DNA of 64,000 bases from Faecalibacterium sp. An122 (GTDB lineage Bacteria > Bacillota > Clostridia > Oscillospirales > Ruminococcaceae): the NCBI RefSeq assembly GCF_002160895.1, contig NZ_NFLL01000013.1:1-64000 (forward strand), read 5' to 3'. The notes below the pieces were generated by a model. It saw only the letters and a program-made list of their open reading frames with translations, had not been told where the DNA came from and did not search any database. This document shows positions 4,000 through 14,790 of this stretch, piece after piece. Each line of letters starts with the position of its first letter. Position 1 is the first letter of the stretch. Position numbers and translations under genes: made by a program.

Positions 4000-5478
4000 T
4001 TATTCCAGCCCGATTTCCTTGGCGTACTCTTCCAGCAGCTCCCGCTCCAGGAAGGGGGTCTTGACGCCCATCCGGTCGCGGTAGGTCTCGTGGCCCTTGC
4101 CGATGACGGCGATCAGGTCGCCGGGCTGGGCGTGGTCCACCGCATAGTGGAGGGCGTCCAGACGGTCGGGGATCTCCACAAACTTGGCGTCGGGGTTACC
4201 CTTGACCATGCCCTGACGGATGTCGGCCAGGATGTCCTCCACCTTTTCAAAGCGGTTGTTATCCTCGGTGAGGATGGAGAAATCCGCCATCTTGGCGCAG
4301 ATTTCGCCCATGCCGTAGCGGCGCAGCTTGGAGCGGTTGCCGCCGCAGCCGAACACCACCACCAGACGGTGGGGCTGATAGGCCCGCAGGGTGGTCAGCA
4401 GGCTCTCGGTGGAGACCTCGTTGTGGGCGTAGTCCAGCAGGATGGTGAACTTTTTGCTGATGGGCACCAGCTCCACCCGGCCCTTGACCACACAGCGGGC
4501 CAGGCCGTCGTGGATGGCCTGGTCGGGCACACCCAGCTCCTTGCCCACCGCCAGGGCGGCCAGGGCGTTGTAGACGCTGAATGCGCCCGGCATATTGACC
4601 CGGACGTCCATCTCGTCTTTGCCGCTGACGTGGAAGGTCACGCCCAGGAAGTCGTGGGTCCGCAGCAGCTGGCATTCCCCGGCCCGGTAGTCGTCCTTCT
4701 CCCCCATGCCGTAGGTCACCAGGCGGCAGGTATGGCCCTCCAGCAGGGCCTCGGCGTTGGGGTCGTCGGCGTTTACAATGCCCACGTCGCACCGCTGGAA
4801 CAGTTTGCCCTTCCAGCTGCGGTACTCCTCAAAGCTGGCGTGCTCGCCGGGGCCGATGTGGTCGGGGGAAAGGTTGGTAAAGACGCCCACGTTGTAGTGG
4901 ATGCCTCCCACACGGTCCATCATCAGGCCCTGGCTGGAAACCTCCATCACCACCGTGTCGCAGCCCGCATCCACAAAGGTGCGGAAAATCTTCTGCAGCT
5001 CGTAGCTCTCAGGGGTGGTGTTGGCGGTGTCCTCATGGCGGCCCATATAGGACACGCCGTTGGTGCCGATCATGCCCACCTTGCGGCCCGCCGCCTCCAG
5101 CACGCTGCGGATCATGTGGGCGGTGGTGGTCTTGCCCTTGGTGCCGGTGACGCCGATCATGGTCATCCGGCGGGCCGGGTTGCCAAAGAGGTTGGCGCTC
5201 ATCCGGGCCATGGCATAGCGGCTGCTGTCCACCTTCAGGACGGTGACCCCGTCCATTCCGGTCAGGTCGATGTCGTGCTGGATGACGATGGCCGCCGCGC
5301 CCTTGGCGGCGCAGTCGGCGGCAAAGTCATGGCTGTCCCGCTGGGTGCCCACAATGCAGACAAACAGCACGCCGGGGGCGGCCCTTCGGCTGTCATAGAC
5401 GATATCGGTGATTTCGGTGTCCATGCTGCCCTGGACCAGGGTGCAGGCGACGCCTTCCGTCAATGCAGATAATTTCAT
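4000..5478 (-). CDS. murE: UDP-N-acetylmuramoyl-tripeptide synthetase MurE
   Basis: ATP-dependent ligase that adds the third amino acid (meso-diaminopimelate or lysine) to UDP-MurNAc-L-Ala-D-Glu in the cytoplasm. The 492 residues include the P-loop TGTKGKTTT at 111-119 and the C-terminal GKGHE motif. The substrate-selecting motif, usually DNPR in diaminopimelate enzymes, reads DNNR at 406-409. I choose ATG 5478, with GAGGAG at proper spacing; an earlier ATG overlaps the ftsQ stop but lacks a good site. It is the last gene of the minus-strand cell-wall cluster, displaced from its usual place between the PBP gene and murF. Confidence 0.93.
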   Translation of the reverse strand: MKLSALTEGVACTLVQGSMDTEITDIVYDSRRAAPGVLFVCIVGTQRDSHDFAADCAAKGAAAIVIQHDIDLTGMDGVTVLKVDSSRYAMARMSANLFGNPARRMTMIGVTGTKGKTTTAHMIRSVLEAAGRKVGMIGTNGVSYMGRHEDTANTTPESYELQKIFRTFVDAGCDTVVMEVSSQGLMMDRVGGIHYNVGVFTNLSPDHIGPGEHASFEEYRSWKGKLFQRCDVGIVNADDPNAEALLEGHTCRLVTYGMGEKDDYRAGECQLLRTHDFLGVTFHVSGKDEMDVRVNMPGAFSVYNALAALAVGKELGVPDQAIHDGLARCVVKGRVELVPISKKFTILLDYAHNEVSTESLLTTLRAYQPHRLVVVFGCGGNRSKLRRYGMGEICAKMADFSILTEDNNRFEKVEDILADIRQGMVKGNPDAKFVEIPDRLDALHYAVDHAQPGDLIAVIGKGHETYRDRMGVKTPFLERELLEEYAKEIGLE

Positions 5479-5492
5479 AGCGGATTCACTCC

Positions 5493-6938
5493 TCATTGGT
5501 CTGTCCCCTCAGCGGGGGTCTCTGGGGCCGTTCCGTCTCCGGCGGCCTGGTTTTCCGCGGCGGGGTCCGCCGGCTGGGCAGACGGATCTGCCGCCGGGTC
5601 TGCACCGGTCTCTCCTGCCGGCGCCCCCTCTGCGGCGGTTTCACCGGTCAGGGCGGGGTCTGTGGTTTCGGTGTCCGGTACAGGCACCTCCTCCGGCACA
5701 ACATAGCCCGAGGGCAGTTCGGGCACGCCCTGGGCAAAGATGGCCTGCAGGGTGCCGTCGGTCTTGACGTGGCTGCAGTCCAGCTGACCGGTATCGGTCT
5801 CGGCGCAGCCCTTGCCCTCTTTGTTCAGCAGCATGTACTCGGCATAGTCCAGTTTATAGTCCAGCTCGTTCAAGGTGCCCAGCAGGACGCTGATCCGGTC
5901 CTGATACAGGAAGGCGATCTCCTCCACATCGGCGTATTCGATGCGGGTCACGTCCCCCAGCAGGCCCCGCTCTTCCAGAGCGGTCAGCAGGGTGGTGAGG
6001 GCATCAATCCGCCCATCCTGAGCCAGCGCGGCGCTCTCGCTGTCCGCTGCACTGGACGCCTCTGCGGAGTCTGCCCCGCTCAGGGCGGGGTCCGCCAGAG
6101 CGTAGGCCAGCTGATCGCCGGGGGTCACGCTCACCGGGTCGCCGCCGTAGAGCACCAGCAGGTCGGGCTGCTGGGTCTCGGTGGACAAAATCTTGAGCCC
6201 TGCCGACAGGTTGATCCAGCCGGTGGAGGTCTGTATGGTATAGGCAGGGGTGGCCGGGGTCACCTGCACCACCACGGTGCTGGGATACACCCGCTTGACC
6301 TCGATCTGTTCCAGCAGCGGGAAGGTTTTCTCCAGCATGGCGGCCTTTTCGCCTGGGTCAAAGCTGAAGATGTTTTCCTCCACCTGCACCCCCAGGGTCT
6401 CCAGAATCTGGCTGCTGGTGTAGGGCCCCGCCTCGGTGAGGGTGGCCCCATCGGGGCCCGCCACCCGGATGGCGTTGATCTTAAACAGCATGGTGACGGT
6501 GAGGTAGACGCCCGCCGCCGCCACGCACAGCACCAGGAACACCGCAGTCAGGCGGCGCATCATCCGGCGGCGGCGCAGCATTTTGCGGGTCAGACGGCGA
6601 CGGCGGCGGCCCTCCCGCCGGGGCGCCGAGGCGGACGGACGGGCCTGTGCGGGCCGCCGGGCTCCATTGGCGCTGCGGCCCGGCCGCACCTGCTGGGGAC
6701 GGGCCCCGTTCCGGGTCCGCTGCTCCCCCGGGCGCTGGCTGGGCCGGGTCTGGCCGGTGGGGAATTCCACCAGGTTATCCTGGCGGCGGGCCCGGGGCGG
6801 ATGCTCATAAAAGAAGCTGTCCTCCACCCTCTGGTCACTCCCCGCCGCCGGGGCCGGACGCTGTCTGTTCTGCCCCTGCTGGGGCCGCTGCGGGGCGGAT
6901 CGCCCTGCCGGCCTCCGCCTGCGCTTTTTGGAAGGCAT
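5493..6938 (-). CDS. ftsQ: Cell-division protein FtsQ/DivIB (POTRA domain)
   Basis: Bitopic divisome protein that links FtsL/FtsB partners to septal synthesis. It has a cytoplasmic N-terminal tail of about 130 residues very rich in Arg, Pro and Gln. One membrane span follows at about 131-151, then the POTRA domain from about 153 (FKINAIRVAG) and a beta domain. The last 70 or so residues are an extracellular Pro/Ala/Glu-rich disordered tail. At 481 residues it is nearly double the usual length because of both tails. I prefer ATG 6938, with AAAGGAGG eight bases upstream, over a TTG 30 bp earlier. It lies between murG and murE. Confidence 0.85.
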   Translation of the reverse strand: MPSKKRRRRPAGRSAPQRPQQGQNRQRPAPAAGSDQRVEDSFFYEHPPRARRQDNLVEFPTGQTRPSQRPGEQRTRNGARPQQVRPGRSANGARRPAQARPSASAPRREGRRRRRLTRKMLRRRRMMRRLTAVFLVLCVAAAGVYLTVTMLFKINAIRVAGPDGATLTEAGPYTSSQILETLGVQVEENIFSFDPGEKAAMLEKTFPLLEQIEVKRVYPSTVVVQVTPATPAYTIQTSTGWINLSAGLKILSTETQQPDLLVLYGGDPVSVTPGDQLAYALADPALSGADSAEASSAADSESAALAQDGRIDALTTLLTALEERGLLGDVTRIEYADVEEIAFLYQDRISVLLGTLNELDYKLDYAEYMLLNKEGKGCAETDTGQLDCSHVKTDGTLQAIFAQGVPELPSGYVVPEEVPVPDTETTDPALTGETAAEGAPAGETGADPAADPSAQPADPAAENQAAGDGTAPETPAEGTDQ

Positions 6939-7091: not shown

Positions 7092-8219
7092 TTACGGCTC
7101 CCGCACCAGCTTTTGCAGCCGGTCCACAATCCGGTTCAGGCTGTCGTCCACCGACAGGGTGCGGGCATTGCGGCCCATCCGGGCCAATCTGGTGTCCTCG
7201 GCCAGCAGCTGCCGCACCTCCTCCACCAGCTTTTCACCGGTCAGGTCCTTTTCCTCAATGACCACCGCTGCGTCCACCTTGGCCAGCTCCAGGGCATTGT
7301 AGTACTGATGATTCTCGGCCACGTTGGGGCTGGGGATCAGGATGGCGGCCCGGCCGGCGGCCTCCAGCTCGGCCAGAGTCAGCGCGCCGGCCCGGCTGAT
7401 GACCAGGTCCGCCGCGGCCAGCAGCTCGGGCATATTGTCGATGTACTCCCGCACAATCAGGCTGTCCCCCCGGGCAAAGCCCTTCTCCTTTTCCAGGTTG
7501 CGGAACAGCTCCACGCCGTACTGGCCGGTGGCGTGGAGGTGCAGGGTGTTCAGGTGATTTTTCTGCTCCCAGGCGCACAGGTCGGCCACTACTTCATTGA
7601 TCCGGCGTGCCCCCAGGCTGCCGCCAAAGGACAGGATCACGGTGCGGTCTCCTGCATTGAGCTTGGCCCGGGCTTCGTCCCGGCGCTTGGTCCAGTCAAA
7701 GACCTCGGGACGGACCGGGTTGCCCACCACGAGGGTCTTGCCGGGTGCGCCCAGACGGTCGGCGCCGGCCTGCACCGCCGCAAAAACCACATCCACCTCG
7801 GGGGCCAGCAGCTTGTTGGTGACGCCGGGGAAGGCGTTCTGTTCATGGATGGCGGTCTTAATCCCCCGCTTGGCCGCCGCACGGACCACCGGGCCCGACA
7901 CATAGCCGCCGCAGCCGATGACCAGGTCGGGCTTCACCTCATTGAGGATGGCCTTGCAGCGGGGTCCCGAGCGGGCCAGATTCCAGACGGTGACAACATT
8001 CCGCCGCAGGTTTTCCAGGGACGGCCGCCGCTGAAAGCCGGTCACCTCGATGTGGTGGAAGGGGTAGCCCGCCTGGGTCACCAGACGGTACTCCATGCCC
8101 TCTTTCCGCCCCGCAAAGTGGATCTCGGCGGACGGGTCCGCCGCCCGCAGCGCCCCCGCAATGGCAAGGGCCGGGTTGATATGGCCGGCGGTGCCGCCGG
8201 CTGCGATCAATACGCGCAT
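7092..8219 (-). CDS. murG: UDP-GlcNAc:lipid I N-acetylglucosaminyltransferase
   Basis: Peripheral membrane GT28 enzyme that turns lipid I into lipid II on the inner face of the membrane. The 375 residues begin MRVLIAAGGTAGHINPALAI, the glycine-rich acceptor-site motif. The C-terminal half has the donor motifs, including ISRAGALTLAELEAAGRAA. ATG 8219 is chosen because GGAGGA lies seven bases upstream; the longer frame has no support. The gene sits between ftsW and ftsQ, a usual Firmicutes order. The 153 bp between murG and ftsQ hold nothing I recognise. Confidence 0.95.
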   Translation of the reverse strand: MRVLIAAGGTAGHINPALAIAGALRAADPSAEIHFAGRKEGMEYRLVTQAGYPFHHIEVTGFQRRPSLENLRRNVVTVWNLARSGPRCKAILNEVKPDLVIGCGGYVSGPVVRAAAKRGIKTAIHEQNAFPGVTNKLLAPEVDVVFAAVQAGADRLGAPGKTLVVGNPVRPEVFDWTKRRDEARAKLNAGDRTVILSFGGSLGARRINEVVADLCAWEQKNHLNTLHLHATGQYGVELFRNLEKEKGFARGDSLIVREYIDNMPELLAAADLVISRAGALTLAELEAAGRAAILIPSPNVAENHQYYNALELAKVDAAVVIEEKDLTGEKLVEEVRQLLAEDTRLARMGRNARTLSVDDSLNRIVDRLQKLVREP

Positions 8220-8316: not shown

Positions 8317-9642
8317 TCACAGCCCGGGCTGATGCCCGGCGGACCGGCGGCCCAGGCCATTTAGAACAATGGGCGGCCGGGCCGATTCCTGACGGATTTT
8401 TTCCATTTGCGCAGCGCGGCGGGCTTCCGCAGCCCGGGCGCCGTTGCGGCCGATGTGGATCATAACGCCCATCTCAGCCATCAGAAGCAGCAGACTGGTG
8501 CCGCCGGAGGAGAAGAAGGGCAGACTGATGCCGGTGTTGGGCAGGGTGTTGGTGACCACCGCCACATTGCAGAACACCTGCCAGCCCACCTGGGCCATGA
8601 TGCCCACGCCCACCAGGGTGCTGAACCGGTCCGCGGCCTGGAATGCAATCCAGAAGCCCTGCACCAGCAGCAGCACAAACAGCAGGATAACCACCACAGC
8701 GCCCACAAAGCCCAGCTCCTCGCACACCACGCTGAAGATAAAGTCGTTGGTGCACTCGGGCAGCCAGAGCTGTTTTTCCACGCTGTTGCCCAGGCCCAGG
8801 CCGGTCAGGCCTCCCGAGCCGATGGCGTACAGGCTCTGGAGGGTCTGGTCGGTCATCTTGGTAAGGTCCTGGGTCCAGCCGTCCAGACGGGCCTGCAGGT
8901 AAGGGATGGAGTCAATATGGGACAGGATGCTCTCCAGCAGCAGGATGGCGGCCGCTGCGCCGCCGTAAGTAATGATGCCGCCGCTGCCGTTGAGCAGCAG
9001 GATGCTGCCCACGATGGCGCACATCAGGACGATGCCGGACATATGAGGTTCCAGAGCCAGCAGCACAATGATGGGCAGCAGAGGGATCAGCGGGACCATC
9101 AGTTCCCGCACCACCTTCTGGTACAGCCACCGGCCAAAGTTTTTCGCCACCCGCCGGGCCCCGGGCTCTCCCTGGAGGACCAGATGGGGGGTGCGGCTGG
9201 CCAGATGGGCCGTCAGCAGGATCATCTCGAACTTCACCAGCTCGGAAGCCTGCAAAGTGGGCAGGCCGCGGATGTTGATCCAGCGGCGGCAGCCGTTCAG
9301 CGGCTCACAGAACAGCACCAGCACCAGCAGAATCAGGCTGACGATGTAGCCAGCCCAGACAAATTTGCGGATGAACCGCAGGTCGATGTAGGAAAAGAGG
9401 AACATAACCCCCATTCCGATGGCGGCGTAGAGGGTCTGGGACTTGATGTAGTAGAAGCTGTCCCCCATCCGCAGGTAACCGGTGGTATAGCTGGCGCTGA
9501 ACAGCATCACCAGCCCAAAAATCACGATCAGGATAAGGGTCGCGAGCCAGCCGATGGTCAGCGGGGTCCACGGCCCGGGGTTGCGCTGAAACACCACCAC
9601 CGGCCCGTTGGGGTCGGGGCGTCGTCTTCTTGCAACAGCCAT
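8317..9642 (-). CDS. ftsW: SEDS-family septal peptidoglycan glycosyltransferase FtsW
   Basis: Polytopic membrane enzyme that polymerises lipid II together with the class B PBP of the divisome. Of 441 residues, ten hydrophobic segments can be counted. The signature loop GLGNSVEKQLWLPECTNDFI contains the conserved catalytic aspartate. The late motif NTLPNTGISLPFFSSGGTS is intact. ATG 9642 is preferred over the GTG at 9708. The last 40 residues are a charged cytoplasmic tail. The neighbouring PBP gene is its likely partner. RodA is the alternative, but the context is divisional. Confidence 0.9.
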   Translation of the reverse strand: MAVARRRRPDPNGPVVVFQRNPGPWTPLTIGWLATLILIVIFGLVMLFSASYTTGYLRMGDSFYYIKSQTLYAAIGMGVMFLFSYIDLRFIRKFVWAGYIVSLILLVLVLFCEPLNGCRRWINIRGLPTLQASELVKFEMILLTAHLASRTPHLVLQGEPGARRVAKNFGRWLYQKVVRELMVPLIPLLPIIVLLALEPHMSGIVLMCAIVGSILLLNGSGGIITYGGAAAAILLLESILSHIDSIPYLQARLDGWTQDLTKMTDQTLQSLYAIGSGGLTGLGLGNSVEKQLWLPECTNDFIFSVVCEELGFVGAVVVILLFVLLLVQGFWIAFQAADRFSTLVGVGIMAQVGWQVFCNVAVVTNTLPNTGISLPFFSSGGTSLLLLMAEMGVMIHIGRNGARAAEARRAAQMEKIRQESARPPIVLNGLGRRSAGHQPGL

Positions 9643-9708: not shown

Positions 9709-10734
9709 TCAGAGCTGTGCGGTGCGCAGGGCGGCCAGCGTTCCGGCCAGGGCCAGCGCACAGAATACATAAAACACCGTCACCGGGCCGCCCCGCCGGC
9801 ACAGCCAGGCGTCGAAGCTGCCCTCCCGAAAGAGAGGACGCCGCCGCACCCGGCGCCACAGAGCCTGCAGCAGGCCGGCCAGGCCCTCCACCCAGAAGGG
9901 CAGGGCCAGCGCCAGGGCGATGTCCGCCCGGCCAATGGACAGGGGGATGCCTCCCACCGCACCGGCCAGGAACATACTTCCCACCGAGCCCGGCAGCAGC
10001 CGCGCCGGGTAAAAGTTCCACAGCAGAAAAGCCATCAAAGCCCCTGCCAGGGCTGCAGGCAGCACCGCCAGGGGGAAAAATCCCAGGATGGTCTCGGCTC
10101 CCATCAGGCCCAGCATGGCCACAAAGGCCGCGCCGGCCGCCGCGCCGTCGGCGGGGCCGGACATCCGGGCCGACTCGCTGAGAGCCATCAGCATGACCGC
10201 CCAGAGGGGGGCTGCCGCGCCGCCCAGCTCCAGATACCCGACGCCGGGCAGGGTCAGACCGGTGGGCATGGCGCCGTTCAGGTAGAGGGCCGCCACCGTC
10301 ACCAGGGCGGCCGCCCCTTCCAGAGCCAGCCGGGGCCCCGTCCGCAGGCCCAGCACCTGGCGGGGCCGCAGCCGGGCCAGGTCGTCGGCCAGGCCCGCCG
10401 CTCCAAAGAGGAAGCCCGACCCCAGACCCAGCATCAGCCGGCCGGTGAGCCCGCCGCCCAGCAGTTCCGGCTGGACCAGGCAGACCACCACCCAGCCCAC
10501 GCCCACCGCCGCCAGGGTGCCAATGATAAAGCACAGGCCGCCCATGGTGGGCAGGCCCCTGGGCTCAGGCGGCTCCGGCTGGCGCTCCGATTCCGGCGAA
10601 TCCGGCTTTGCGCCGGCGCCGGTCTCTTTTTCGGGTGGGACAAGGGCCCGCAGCAGCGGGACCAACAGGTTCCCGACCGCGGTCGTCAGGGCAAATCCCA
10701 GCACCGACGCCACGATCAAGGCAAAACGTATCAT
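9709..10734 (-). CDS. MraY-like membrane protein with degenerate active site
   Basis: It occupies the mraY position between murF and ftsW and has the MraY fold: about ten membrane spans in 341 residues, the PTMGG motif at 62-66 and the first aspartate pair at D117-D118. The other catalytic motifs of phospho-MurNAc-pentapeptide transferase are lost. The NLTDGLDG box reads RMSGPADG (190-197). The conserved Asp of the GDTGS box is S250 in PGSVGS. The cytoplasmic histidine triad is replaced around 305-309 (EGSFD). The frame is open throughout, so it is a maintained gene and not a wreck. It may be a non-catalytic relative, or a very divergent enzyme. GGAG supports the start. Confidence 0.8.
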   Translation of the reverse strand: MIRFALIVASVLGFALTTAVGNLLVPLLRALVPPEKETGAGAKPDSPESERQPEPPEPRGLPTMGGLCFIIGTLAAVGVGWVVVCLVQPELLGGGLTGRLMLGLGSGFLFGAAGLADDLARLRPRQVLGLRTGPRLALEGAAALVTVAALYLNGAMPTGLTLPGVGYLELGGAAAPLWAVMLMALSESARMSGPADGAAAGAAFVAMLGLMGAETILGFFPLAVLPAALAGALMAFLLWNFYPARLLPGSVGSMFLAGAVGGIPLSIGRADIALALALPFWVEGLAGLLQALWRRVRRRPLFREGSFDAWLCRRGGPVTVFYVFCALALAGTLAALRTAQL

Positions 10735-10760
10735 GCTTTCTATCTCCGATCCGTTGGTTT

Positions 10761-12161
10761 TCAGTCGCTGTTTTCGCTCTCTGCTCTGGCCTCGGCGTCC
10801 TGCAGGGCGCTCAGCTTTTCGATGGCGTTTTCCAGCGCCATCCCGCGGCTGCCCTTAAAGAGGACCGCATCCCCCGGCGCAGCTGCCCGCGCCAGGAAAC
10901 CGGCAATTTCATCGTAGTTGTTGGCGTGGATGGTCCGCACCCCTTTGGCCGCGGCCACGGTGGCGGTACGGCGGGCCAGGTCGCCGTACGTAATCAGCAC
11001 GTCAATGTTGCTCTGGGCCACCAGGCGGCCCAGTTCTTCGTGGGCTTCACGGCCGTGCTCGCCCAGCTCCAGCATATCCGCCAGCACCGCAAAACGGCGC
11101 TTGCAGGGATATTCCTTGAACATCTCCAGGGCGGCCTTCATGCTGTTGGGGTTGGCGTTGTAGCAGTCCTTGATGATCCACACCCCGTGGCTGTCCAGCA
11201 TCTGCTGGCGCATCCCGGTCTGGCGGAATTCCTTCATCTGCTTCAGGGCGTCCCGGGGCTCCAGGCCGGCCTGGATGGCGGCGCAGTAGGCCGCCAGGGC
11301 GTTGGCCACATTGTGGCGGCCCAGCGCGCTGATGTGGACCATGAAACAGCCGTTCTCGGCGTCGTCCAGCAGGAAGCTCATGCCGTCGTCCTCCTGCCGG
11401 ATGGCGGAGGCGTAAACGTCGGCCTCCTGGCTGGTCATGCTGTACCAGACCGGGCGGACGTGGCTGGGCAGCTGGGCCTTGCGCAGGAATTCGTCGTCGT
11501 AGTTGAGGATCAGGGGCGCGCCCTCGGGCATCCCCTCACAGATTTCCAGCTTTGCCTTGCAGATATTCTCCTGGCTGCCCAGATTCCCGATGTGGGACAG
11601 GCCGATGCAGGTAATGATACCGATATCAGGTTTGGCGCAGCGGGACAGACGGCTGATCTCTCCGGCGTGGTTCATCCCCATCTCGATCACGGCGTATTCG
11701 GTGGAGGCGTCGATCCGGAACAGCGTCCGGGGCAGGCCCAGCTCGTTGTTCTGGTTGCCCTCGGTCTTGATGGTGTTGCCCAGGACCGACAGGGCGGTGG
11801 CGCAGAATTCCTTGGTGGTGGTCTTGCCCACGCTGCCGGTGACGCCGATCACCTTGGGCGAGAACTGGGCCCGGTAATTGGCGCCCATCTGCATCATGGC
11901 CTGATAGCTGTCGGGGCAAAGGATGGTCTTTTCCTCGGGGACTCCCTCAACCGGGTGGTTCAGCACCACCCATGCGGCTCCGTCTGCCAGCGCTTTGGCT
12001 GCAAAATTGTGTCCGTCAAAGTGCTCGCCCGGAAACGCCACAAAGACGCATCCCGGCACAACCTCTCGGCTGTCGGTGGTCACCAGAGTGACTTTTTCTT
12101 CACCGATCCGTTCCGCAGGCGCCAGGCCTGCCAGGAGGATGTTTGCTGCGATGTGTTCCAT
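10761..12161 (-). CDS. murF: UDP-N-acetylmuramoyl-tripeptide:D-Ala-D-Ala ligase
   Basis: Cytoplasmic ligase that completes the UDP-MurNAc-pentapeptide by adding D-Ala-D-Ala. The 466 residues show the Mur-ligase P-loop GVTGSVGKTTTKEF, the MurF-type EGNQNNELGLP and MGMNHAGEI motifs, and the C-terminal YNANPNSM box. The length is normal. It is first behind its own promoter at 12204-12233 and is followed by the MraY-like gene after 26 bp, so these two and ftsW, murG, ftsQ and murE probably share a transcript. Confidence 0.95.
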   Translation of the reverse strand: MEHIAANILLAGLAPAERIGEEKVTLVTTDSREVVPGCVFVAFPGEHFDGHNFAAKALADGAAWVVLNHPVEGVPEEKTILCPDSYQAMMQMGANYRAQFSPKVIGVTGSVGKTTTKEFCATALSVLGNTIKTEGNQNNELGLPRTLFRIDASTEYAVIEMGMNHAGEISRLSRCAKPDIGIITCIGLSHIGNLGSQENICKAKLEICEGMPEGAPLILNYDDEFLRKAQLPSHVRPVWYSMTSQEADVYASAIRQEDDGMSFLLDDAENGCFMVHISALGRHNVANALAAYCAAIQAGLEPRDALKQMKEFRQTGMRQQMLDSHGVWIIKDCYNANPNSMKAALEMFKEYPCKRRFAVLADMLELGEHGREAHEELGRLVAQSNIDVLITYGDLARRTATVAAAKGVRTIHANNYDEIAGFLARAAAPGDAVLFKGSRGMALENAIEKLSALQDAEARAESENSD

Positions 12162-12297: not shown

Positions 12298-14790
12298 TCA
12301 TCCGCAGGTGATGGTGACGATGGTGCCCAGCTGAACGCTGCTGCCCGGCGCGGCGCTCTGGCTCTGGACCAGGCCTCCGGCGTTGCCCTCCACGGTGCAG
12401 TTCAGGCCCGCCGCCAGCAGCATCTGCCGCGCAAAGTCGGCGCTCTTGCCGGTGAGGTCGGGCACCTCGGTGGTCTTGCCGCCCGAGCCGTCGGTGTAGA
12501 GGTAGACGGTGGTGCCGCTGGGCACGGTGGACCCGGCGGTGGGATACTGCCAGGTGACCGGCGCGGCGGTGTTGTCGGCCTCGCTCTCCACCAGCTGGTG
12601 CTTGAGGCCCCGGATGTTCAGAGACACCTGGGCGTTGCTCCACTCGGTGCCGATCAGGTTGGGCACCTTGACGGTGGTGCCGCTGCGGTCGATGCCGTCG
12701 GTGGCCAGGCCCAGATAGGGGGCAATCTCACTGATGATATTGCCCACCACCGGCGCAGCCAGAACCGACGAGTAGTCACTGTTGGCGTTGTTGGGGTCGT
12801 CCAGCATCACATAGACCAGGATCTCCGGGTCGTCTGCCGGCAGGACCGCCACAAAGGAAGCCGCCTTCTTGTAGTCGCCGTCGGCGCGGCGGTCCATGTT
12901 CAGCAGCTCGGAGGTGCCCGACTTGCCGCCGATGCGGTAGCCGGCCACATAGGCACGGTAGCCGCCCACCTGCGTGGTGCCGTCGCCCACCTCATACTCC
13001 ATGATCTGGCGGATGGTCTCGCTGGCGCTCTCGCTGATGACCTGGCGGCGGACGTTGGCGCCGATCTGCTCCACCACGTTGCCGTTGGCGTCCACAATCT
13101 GGTCCACCACGTGGGGGGTCACCAGATAGCCGCCGTTGACCGAGGCCGCAATGGCAGTGCAGACCTGCAGCGGGGTCACCGCCATGGACTGGCCAAAGGC
13201 CGAGGAGGCCAGCTCCACTTCGCCCATGTTCTTGTCGGTGTAGTACTGCATGTAGGCGGTCTCGTTGGGCAGGTCCACGCCGGTCTGTTCGGTGAAGCCA
13301 AAGGCCTTAAAATACTGATAGAAGGACTGGACGCCGATCCGCTGGCCCAGCTGGATAAAGTAGATGTTGCAGCTGTTCTGCAGAGCCAGAGCCAGGTTCT
13401 GAACGCCGTGGCTGTGACGGCCGGCGCAGTGGTAGGTCTCCTTGGCCACCGCATAGGCGCCGGAGCAGTTGAAGGTGGTGTTGTAGGTGGCGTTGCCCGA
13501 GTCCAGGCCCATGGCCGCCGTAATCACCTTAAAGACGCTTCCGGGGTAGTACAGCTCGGTGATGTTCTTGTTTTTCCACATGATATCCCGGAAATAGCCC
13601 GAGTAGTCGGCCTCCGGGTCCAGGATCTTGTTGCCCTCCTCGTCGGTGACGTAGGAGCCGTCCTCGTTTTTCAGGTAGATGCCGTACAGTTCCGGCTCGG
13701 CCCGGACCAGTTCCTCCAGATAGGCCTGGTTGGCGGTGTAGTCGTTGGGGTTGTTGGGGTCAAAATCCGGCTTGGAGGCCATGGCCAGGATGCCGCCGGT
13801 CTTGACGTCCATCACAATGGCGCAGCCGCGGTTTTCCACCGTGTTGGCGGCGATGGCCTCGTTCAGATACCGCTCCACCACTTCCTGAATGGTGCTGTCC
13901 AGGGTCAGGATCAGGCTGTTGCCGTCCTTGGCGTCGTAGGTCACCGCGCCGCTGTCGGCGATGGCATTGCCCCGGGCATTGCGGATGGTGACGGTGCGGC
14001 CGTCGGTGCCGGCCAGCACGTCGTTATAGGACTTTTCCAGCCCGTAGAAGCCCTCGCCGTCGGCATTGGTGAAGCCCAGCACCGACGCCGCAAAGGCCCC
14101 GTAGGGATAGTTCCGCTGATAGGTGCGGGAGCTGGAAATGGACAGCCGGCCGGTGCCCTTTTTGGCGTTGCGGTCGGAGACGTAGCTCTCGATGGACTCC
14201 TTGACGGCGTTGTTCACCTTCTCGGCCAGCACCTGATAGGAGGAATCAATCTTGCTGAGGGCATTGTAAATCTTCTCGTACTGGGCCACATAGGCGTCGG
14301 AGGTGGTGTCCACCTTGTCCAGGCTAACGCCGTCCCCCGACAGCAGCCGGAGGGTCAGTTCCCGGCTGATTTCGGCGCAGGCCGCCGCATTCAGGTTGTG
14401 GGCGGTGGACTCCACTTCCTCCCCGGTTTCGGGGTCGGTGGAGGTGATGGTCTGGCTGTCGTAGAGGGCGGAGGAATAGCTGGGGTCGCACCAGATATCC
14501 CAGACCACGCTGGTGGAAGCCAGGACTTTGCCGGTGGCGTCGTAGATCTCGCCCCGGGTGGCCTGAATGGTGGTGTCCAGCAGCTGCTGGTCGCTGGCGT
14601 AGCGGGTAAACATCTCGCCATTGCGGATCTGAATATTATAAAGGCTGCCCACCACGATGAGGGTGGCCAGCGCCACCGCACCGATGGAAACGGCCATCCC
14701 AATGGTCCGGGTCCGGCGTGGAATGGGGGTGGCGTCGGGTTCCCGGCGGAGCATATAGTTCCGCCGGCGCCTGTTGTTTTCCTGATTCAT
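12298..14790 (-). CDS. Class B penicillin-binding protein with two PASTA domains (FtsI/PbpB/SpoVD type)
   Basis: DD-transpeptidase that cross-links septal peptidoglycan outside the membrane. The 830 residues comprise a short basic tail, one membrane span (about 31-52), the PBP dimerisation domain, and the transpeptidase with S418-x-x-K421, S473-x-N475 and K623-S-G-T. Two PASTA domains follow, about 705-768 and 770-830. The third box has Ser in the second place (KSG for KTG), as is common. It lies downstream of ftsL but is separated from it by an intrinsic terminator. PASTA modules suggest a PBP2x/PbpB or SpoVD role; the two cannot be told apart from sequence alone. Confidence 0.92.
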   Translation of the reverse strand: MNQENNRRRRNYMLRREPDATPIPRRTRTIGMAVSIGAVALATLIVVGSLYNIQIRNGEMFTRYASDQQLLDTTIQATRGEIYDATGKVLASTSVVWDIWCDPSYSSALYDSQTITSTDPETGEEVESTAHNLNAAACAEISRELTLRLLSGDGVSLDKVDTTSDAYVAQYEKIYNALSKIDSSYQVLAEKVNNAVKESIESYVSDRNAKKGTGRLSISSSRTYQRNYPYGAFAASVLGFTNADGEGFYGLEKSYNDVLAGTDGRTVTIRNARGNAIADSGAVTYDAKDGNSLILTLDSTIQEVVERYLNEAIAANTVENRGCAIVMDVKTGGILAMASKPDFDPNNPNDYTANQAYLEELVRAEPELYGIYLKNEDGSYVTDEEGNKILDPEADYSGYFRDIMWKNKNITELYYPGSVFKVITAAMGLDSGNATYNTTFNCSGAYAVAKETYHCAGRHSHGVQNLALALQNSCNIYFIQLGQRIGVQSFYQYFKAFGFTEQTGVDLPNETAYMQYYTDKNMGEVELASSAFGQSMAVTPLQVCTAIAASVNGGYLVTPHVVDQIVDANGNVVEQIGANVRRQVISESASETIRQIMEYEVGDGTTQVGGYRAYVAGYRIGGKSGTSELLNMDRRADGDYKKAASFVAVLPADDPEILVYVMLDDPNNANSDYSSVLAAPVVGNIISEIAPYLGLATDGIDRSGTTVKVPNLIGTEWSNAQVSLNIRGLKHQLVESEADNTAAPVTWQYPTAGSTVPSGTTVYLYTDGSGGKTTEVPDLTGKSADFARQMLLAAGLNCTVEGNAGGLVQSQSAAPGSSVQLGTIVTITCG

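Follow-up and report, generated by a model that had tools for sequence, protein, structure and literature searches.

In Faecalibacterium the mraY gene that holds the syntenic position in the dcw cluster very probably does not encode the working enzyme. The sequence data instead indicate that lipid I is probably made by MraY2, a second member of the family encoded elsewhere in the genome, and that the dcw copy has been retained as a pseudoenzyme. The window, i.e. the whole 64,000-nucleotide stretch of Faecalibacterium sp. An122 DNA that we analysed, carries this degenerate copy (MraYd) on the minus strand at 9709..10734, as an open reading frame of 341 amino acids with an ATG start and, nine bases ahead of it, a GGAG that reads like a ribosome-binding site (10744..10747, minus strand). 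The cluster runs, on the same strand, in the order ftsI, murF, mraYd, ftsW, murG, ftsQ, murE, presumptive names that we assigned from the translations. Directly upstream in transcription lies murF (10761..12161, minus strand), with 26 bases from its stop to the MraYd ATG, and directly downstream lies ftsW (8317..9642, minus strand, the start taken as the ATG at 9642). They are accompanied by murG (7092..8219, minus strand, for which we took an ATG inside the listed ORF as the start) and by an ftsI-type penicillin-binding protein gene (12298..14790, minus strand). A minus-strand frame between murF and ftsW thus bears out the proposal of the first-pass annotation that a degenerate MraY occupies the usual locus. 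As to gene order, murE follows ftsQ here (window positions 4000-5496); an murE between ftsI and murF was seen in none of the Faecalibacterium clusters read and is there in most other genera read.

Mutations in Bacillus subtilis MraY mark D98, D99, K116, N171, D174, D231, H289 and H290 as important (PMC5039524), and the same three-Asp motif and loop E histidines are given in PMC6606608. From the residues in PMC5039524 we mapped, by our own alignment, the Escherichia coli MraY positions D115, D116, K133, N192, D195, D267, H325 and H326, which served as the catalytic scoring set; D267 is the counterpart of the catalytic Asp near the Mg2+ site (PMC5039524). Aligned to E. coli MraY, the window protein reads DDRRGSDA at these eight positions, so that two of eight are kept. 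PTMGG and the DD pair (residues 117-118) are present, RMSGPADG stands in place of the NLTDGLDG box, GSVGS in place of GDTGS (Asp to Ser), and DAW in place of the HHH motif of loop E, just as had been read from the letters at first pass. The three-Asp set is therefore incomplete, D115 and D116 being kept while D267 is Ser; K133, N192, D195 and the histidine triad are also gone, and the last Asp-Gly of loop C remains. An alignment that recovered the catalytic residues had been named as the result that would overturn this reading, and realignment failed to recover them, whether against two reference MraYs or against sets of between 9 and 35 canonical relatives, so we reject misalignment. We also reject a frameshifted pseudogene as a description of the window copy.

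By sequence and by predicted structure MraYd is a genuine MraY homologue. It scores 59.2 bits against Pfam Glycos_transf_4 (PF00953, cut-off 27) and 66.7 bits against TIGR00445, whose curated cut-off is 192.05. Its AlphaFold2 model (mean pLDDT 75.3, pTM 0.78) has MraY chains as all of its best 24 PDB matches, with TM scores, by query length, of 0.64-0.79, and the protein is accordingly predicted to retain the MraY fold. MraYd is thus like canonical MraY (TIGR00445; 4J72, 5JNQ, 8G01) in its predicted ten long helices and beta hairpin, in its place between murF and ftsW and in its PTMGG and DD, and unlike it in the lost residues and in a score below the curated cut-off. Among 14 named loci that matched MraYd, 13 were from Faecalibacterium (54-89% identity) and one was a Candidatus Obscuribacterales contig (28%).

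The residue losses are recurrent across 27 full-length Faecalibacterium copies, and hence cannot be put down to chance or sequencing error. A dcw copy was present in 29 of 31 Faecalibacterium genomes, the two that miss it being G010 and G026 (80% and 89% complete); 27 of the 29 are full-length and open, the one in G024 is frameshifted and one is in contig-end pieces. K133, N192 and H326 are lost in all 27 full-length copies and D267 in 26 of them, N192 being replaced by Arg in 25 and by His in two, and on average 2.67 of the eight catalytic residues are kept. A milder case is G019, which keeps D116, D195, D267 and H325 and passes TIGR00445 (193.9 bits) despite having lost the other four, an example of how blunt a test of catalytic state this cut-off is; in the tree it groups with G020, outside the other Faecalibacterium species. 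Four species (G009, G014, G017 and G029) retain a single one of the eight residues, and their loop E carries a deletion. Conservation among the Faecalibacterium copies is good for the two Gly that follow PTM, the second Asp of the DD pair, the last Gly of loop C and both Gly residues of GDTGS, part of the cytoplasmic face, a pattern that would fit binding without catalysis.

The first-pass annotation had suggested searching the genome for a second mraY, and the genome does hold a second member of the family. A whole-genome profile search gave two PF00953 matches in all, MraYd and MraY2, the latter at G000:C78:57041-58009 on the plus strand. MraY2 reads DDKNDDHD at the eight catalytic positions, i.e. 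seven of eight, the exception being the middle His of HHH, here Asp. Where the first-pass annotation had asked for intact NLTDGLDG and HHH motifs, MraY2 reads NCTDGVDG and HDH. All 31 Faecalibacterium genomes have an MraY2, that of G018 as a contig-end fragment. DDKNDDHD is invariant in 61 of 61 aligned MraY2 sequences, and mean retention in MraY2 is 0.34 over 75 non-catalytic columns conserved in MraY versus 0.875 over the eight catalytic ones; on these figures MraY2 is only distantly related to MraY but has preserved most of the active site. Five MraY2 proteins tested against TIGR00445 gave 65.7-95.0 bits, below the cut-off. All five ranked bacterial MraY best among NCBIfam models, followed by archaeal MraY and then WecA, so that MraY2, while scoring weakly to both WecA and the archaeal pseudomurein MraY (TIGR02380, NF053644), differs from them in its best match. 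Inspection by eye of the gene neighbours at nine MraY2 loci revealed no recognisable shared operon. At two loci of genus g29 (L099 and L106), MraY2 adjoins an FtsI-like gene (97 and 104 bits) on the opposite strand.

Across the family, the presence of MraY2 goes together with a dcw copy that fails the MraY profile. The TIGR00445 cut-off was passed by 120 of 148 family genomes, and MraY2 was found in 21 of the 148, from 15 genera, a call that we read from a gap in scores (445-501 bits in the 21 genomes, 92 bits or less for the other matches listed). Where MraY2 is present, five genomes are over the cut-off and 16 are not; where it is absent, 115 are over it and 12 are not (Fisher p 3.6e-10 with no rows dropped, a nominal value, since the genomes are related; p 8.6e-15 in a second test with ten rows dropped, namely eight genomes with no match, G124, which is split, and G150, which is partial). 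The 12 genomes with neither comprise G095 and G132, with a degenerate copy, G124 and G150, with fragmentary ones, and the eight without a match. Two genomes, G127 and G149, had neither a PF00953 nor a murG match, and in them the cluster is therefore probably missing from the assembly. Copies from canonical-only genomes kept eight of eight residues in all 20 that we sampled of the 115.

Weak dcw copies outside Faecalibacterium came from 14 genomes of 11 genera (12 with MraY2, plus G095 and G132) and from ten further genomes of genus g66. All 24 lie between murF and ftsW and keep zero to four of the eight residues, with a mean of 2.5 (G095 and G132 included). Taking 12 genera together, 50 of 51 low-scoring dcw copies no longer carry D267. 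They were chosen by their low score, so that this is not the rate of loss for all dcw copies beside MraY2. In place of D267 stand Ser, Ala, Cys, Arg, Lys, Met, Gln, Glu or His, with Glu in six of the 24 copies from other genera. In 21 sampled g66 genomes a match of MraY2 strength was found in 20, a weak match in 20 and both in 19; besides the copy of G095, we read ten of the weak sequences and eight of the strong ones. The ten g66 dcw copies (L180-L189) mostly have in common a different stretch in loop C, where an insertion ends in DGL, and a TLHxHL-like loop E, as if reshaped rather than decayed. In the assemblies of G095 (99% complete) and G132 (88%) the dcw copy is degenerate and MraY2 was not found; the copy of G095 (L104) has Glu for Asp267 and HEH in loop E, and that of G132 is L141. 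For G095 an assembly gap is the likely reason, because all 20 other sampled g66 genomes have a match of MraY2 strength.

Two further situations complete the picture. In genera g19, g43 and g70 a canonical MraY accompanies MraY2, and six of seven such dcw copies keep eight of eight residues. The dcw MraY of G072 (L119), canonical and beside an intact MraY2, carries D267N (GNLGS) and is otherwise intact; this change was seen in a single draft among the four genomes of its genus, and it may possibly be an early step of the same loss. In genera g64 and g75, conversely, the dcw copy is gone: murF abuts ftsW in all four clusters read (three of g64, and G104 of g75), and murE, murF, murG, ftsW and ftsI are present in all four. 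In ten of ten g64 genomes, and in G104, no PF00953 match other than MraY2 rises above the cut-off. Seven of the ten g64 genomes have one extra match below the cut-off (10.5-21.7 bits), five of these in frames of about 940 residues, and at the one such locus read (L146, in G093) there was no cluster gene. As far as we have seen, MraY2 is thus the sole candidate for lipid I synthesis in the four genomes whose clusters were read and have no dcw copy. Read from these sequences, the genomes form a natural series, from canonical MraY only, through both, to a dead copy with MraY2, and finally MraY2 only.

We built a backbone tree from MurF, FtsW and MurG (79 rows, leaving out the near-identical Faecalibacterium rows L083, L084 and L085) by a quick search, and it has several long branches. 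Loss of dcw catalysis takes seven changes of state on this tree, a count that cannot separate gain from loss and that includes some weak placements. Faecalibacterium is nested among genera that bear a canonical copy (G050, G048, G163), and its loss therefore seems to have occurred separately from those in g66 and others. The link between MraY2 and loss gave five informative independent pairs, all in the same direction (sign test p 0.0625), drawn from ten pairs, or from eight without G095 and G132. A tree of MraY2 itself (38 rows) recovered several of the backbone groups. Genus g31 stands beside Faecalibacterium in the MraY2 tree (support 88/71) but in the opposite half of the backbone, and transfer of MraY2 between genera is therefore possible. 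Outside the family MraY2 is rare: a sample of 197 genomes of the order gave five matches, all within the family, and a sample of 398 genomes of the phylum gave three, one of them (G787, E 1e-40) in another family of the class. This last is a full MraY2 of 462 bits (L208, G787:C4:49524-50480).

If the dcw copy were simply a pseudogene, one would expect stops or frameshifts and a dN/dS near 1. Neither describes the 27 full-length Faecalibacterium copies, which we read as being under relaxed but real constraint. Pairwise median omega of the trimmed dcw gene was 0.24, 0.11, 0.31 and 0.27 in clades A (that of the window), B, C and D, with 45, 6, 15 and 6 pairs, 72 altogether, a highest value of 0.51, and codon-bootstrap upper limits of 0.27, 0.18, 0.36 and 0.32 (at most 15 pairs each). 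These values are near those of FtsW in the same clades (0.24, 0.06, 0.25 and 0.29), the FtsW estimates being from stop-to-stop frames and those of the trimmed dcw gene from the start codon. Genus-wide, over 25 species and with stop-to-stop frames, the dcw copy had a median omega of 0.46 versus 0.19-0.35 for FtsW, MurF, MurG and MraY2, and it has drifted to GC-rich codons (second-position GC 0.535 versus 0.397 in MraY2). The window copy is separated from its three nearest relatives by a dS of 0.51-0.54. When we simulated neutral evolution of the window gene in one lineage, 1-20% of runs still had an open frame at 0.25 substitutions per site and 0-9% at 0.5, the figure depending on base bias. 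Distances of the dcw copy co-varied with those of FtsW (partial r 0.64), and less with those of MraY2 (0.16), MurF (0.10) and MurG (-0.43), but this is a hint only, resting on 300 non-independent pairs, with FtsW being a neighbouring gene. Lost catalytic residues, a fold predicted to be kept in the window protein and purifying selection in four Faecalibacterium clades together are what one expects of a pseudoenzyme.

The explanation that we favour is that lipid I synthesis moved from the dcw-encoded MraY to its distant homologue MraY2. That MraY2 is the lipid I synthase we infer from its residues and from the genomes where no other family member is over the cut-off; the strongest argument for a working enzyme is that it is the only candidate where the peptidoglycan genes are present. 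The dcw copy would still have the membrane fold and some of the cytoplasmic face, and should neither bind Mg2+ nor carry out the transfer. Why it stays is a guess: it might be a structural, non-catalytic part of the septal wall-synthesis complex near FtsW, where it could, for instance, hold C55-P or partner proteins. We favour such a role in view of the neighbouring ftsW gene, the predicted fold and the co-variation with FtsW. Several observations run counter to a retained role, namely the faster evolution, the drift in composition, the one frameshifted copy and the two genera without the gene (four genomes read). The dcw copy is not indispensable everywhere, and since it was lost in g64 and g75 its role must be dispensable or replaced there. 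These same observations may also be taken to mean that, after the takeover by MraY2, an unused gene is being slowly removed, its frame kept by operon context. We consider such a decaying relic rather unlikely, given the within-clade median omega of 0.11-0.31, the 27 full-length copies that are still open at the dS seen between the window copy and its nearest relatives, and the rarity with which neutral simulation leaves the frame open; moreover, the clean deletions argue that operon polarity does not force retention.

Another way to account for retention is that the dead copy regulates or stabilises MraY2 in a mixed dimer. MraY is described as shifting between monomer and dimer in an equilibrium to which C55-P binding is coupled (PMC9046198), the trypanosome prozyme is a precedent for a dead paralogue that activates its live sister (PMC5201418), and the dead copy co-occurs with MraY2 in all genomes read except G095 and G132. 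As MraY2 appears to work without the dead copy in g64 and g75, and as the hint of co-evolution is weak with MraY2 compared with FtsW, such a partnership seems unlikely to us. Another reading, in which the dcw gene still encodes a working MraY whose active site is unusual and MraY2 serves another polymer, we regard as very improbable. It could appeal to the DD pair and the last Asp-Gly of loop C kept in the window copy, to the syntenic place, to the scores of MraY2 below the TIGR00445 cut-off and to the Glu that replaces Asp267 in some other genera, which might still bind metal; it would have to explain why the Mg2+-coordinating Asp is lost in nearly all low-scoring copies and why MraY2 alone is over the cut-off in genomes with murE, murF, murG, ftsW and ftsI. 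Equally hard to credit is a dcw copy specialised for sporulation, for which the Clostridia offer a precedent in the dcw SEDS and class B PBP genes of Clostridioides difficile (PMC10693644). Spo0A_C matches occurred in 22 of 22 genomes tested, but these include genomes where MraY is canonical (G048, G050, G072, G099), so that they do not discriminate. Faecalibacterium is not known to sporulate. Of the two alternatives raised at first pass, the sequences thus support a second mraY with a non-catalytic copy in the cluster, and the loss of the Mg2+-binding Asp together with the MraY2-only genera tells against a divergent active enzyme. More tentatively, the retained copies may reflect a conserved non-catalytic septal role of MraY, separable from lipid I synthesis, with several lineages having kept a dead copy in parallel as a divisome component.

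Parts of this arrangement have counterparts elsewhere. Planctopirus limnophila is described as having mraY1 and mraY2 in one genome, each single deletion being viable (PMC10632474); it shares with our case two mraY genes and the name mraY2, by which we imply no kinship, and, unlike the pair described here, the available part of that account does not speak of lost catalytic residues. Pairs of the prozyme type (PMC5201418; for pseudoenzymes, PMC5106787) likewise set a dead homologue beside a live one, but here the ancestral locus is held by the dead copy, and its live counterpart is only distantly homologous. In C. difficile and Bacilli, dcw-encoded SpoVE and SpoVD act in sporulation while the general division enzymes are encoded elsewhere (PMC10693644), so that again a wall gene of the cluster has acquired a new use and the general role has passed to another gene or enzyme; SpoVE and SpoVD are described there as enzymes of sporulation, in contrast to MraYd with its lost active site. 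Pseudoenzymes are thus well known, and repurposed dcw genes and a second mraY in a planctomycete are known as well. Our search of the open-access literature turned up neither a description of an MraY that has lost its catalytic residues nor one of a second MraY in Faecalibacterium and its relatives. As far as we found, it is new for a dead MraY to stay in its locus when the essential step has passed to a distant homologue.

MraY is regarded as an essential drug target, and its assignment makes use of dcw synteny; Faecalibacterium is a major human gut commensal. If, as is very probable, the syntenic gene does not encode the enzyme, annotation and metabolic models of Faecalibacterium would point to the wrong protein, as would predictions of how MraY-directed antibiotics act on this genus. 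The series from canonical-only to deleted constitutes a natural experiment on the roles of MraY besides catalysis, and, if a septal role separable from lipid I synthesis is real, the dead copies would be natural separation-of-function alleles.
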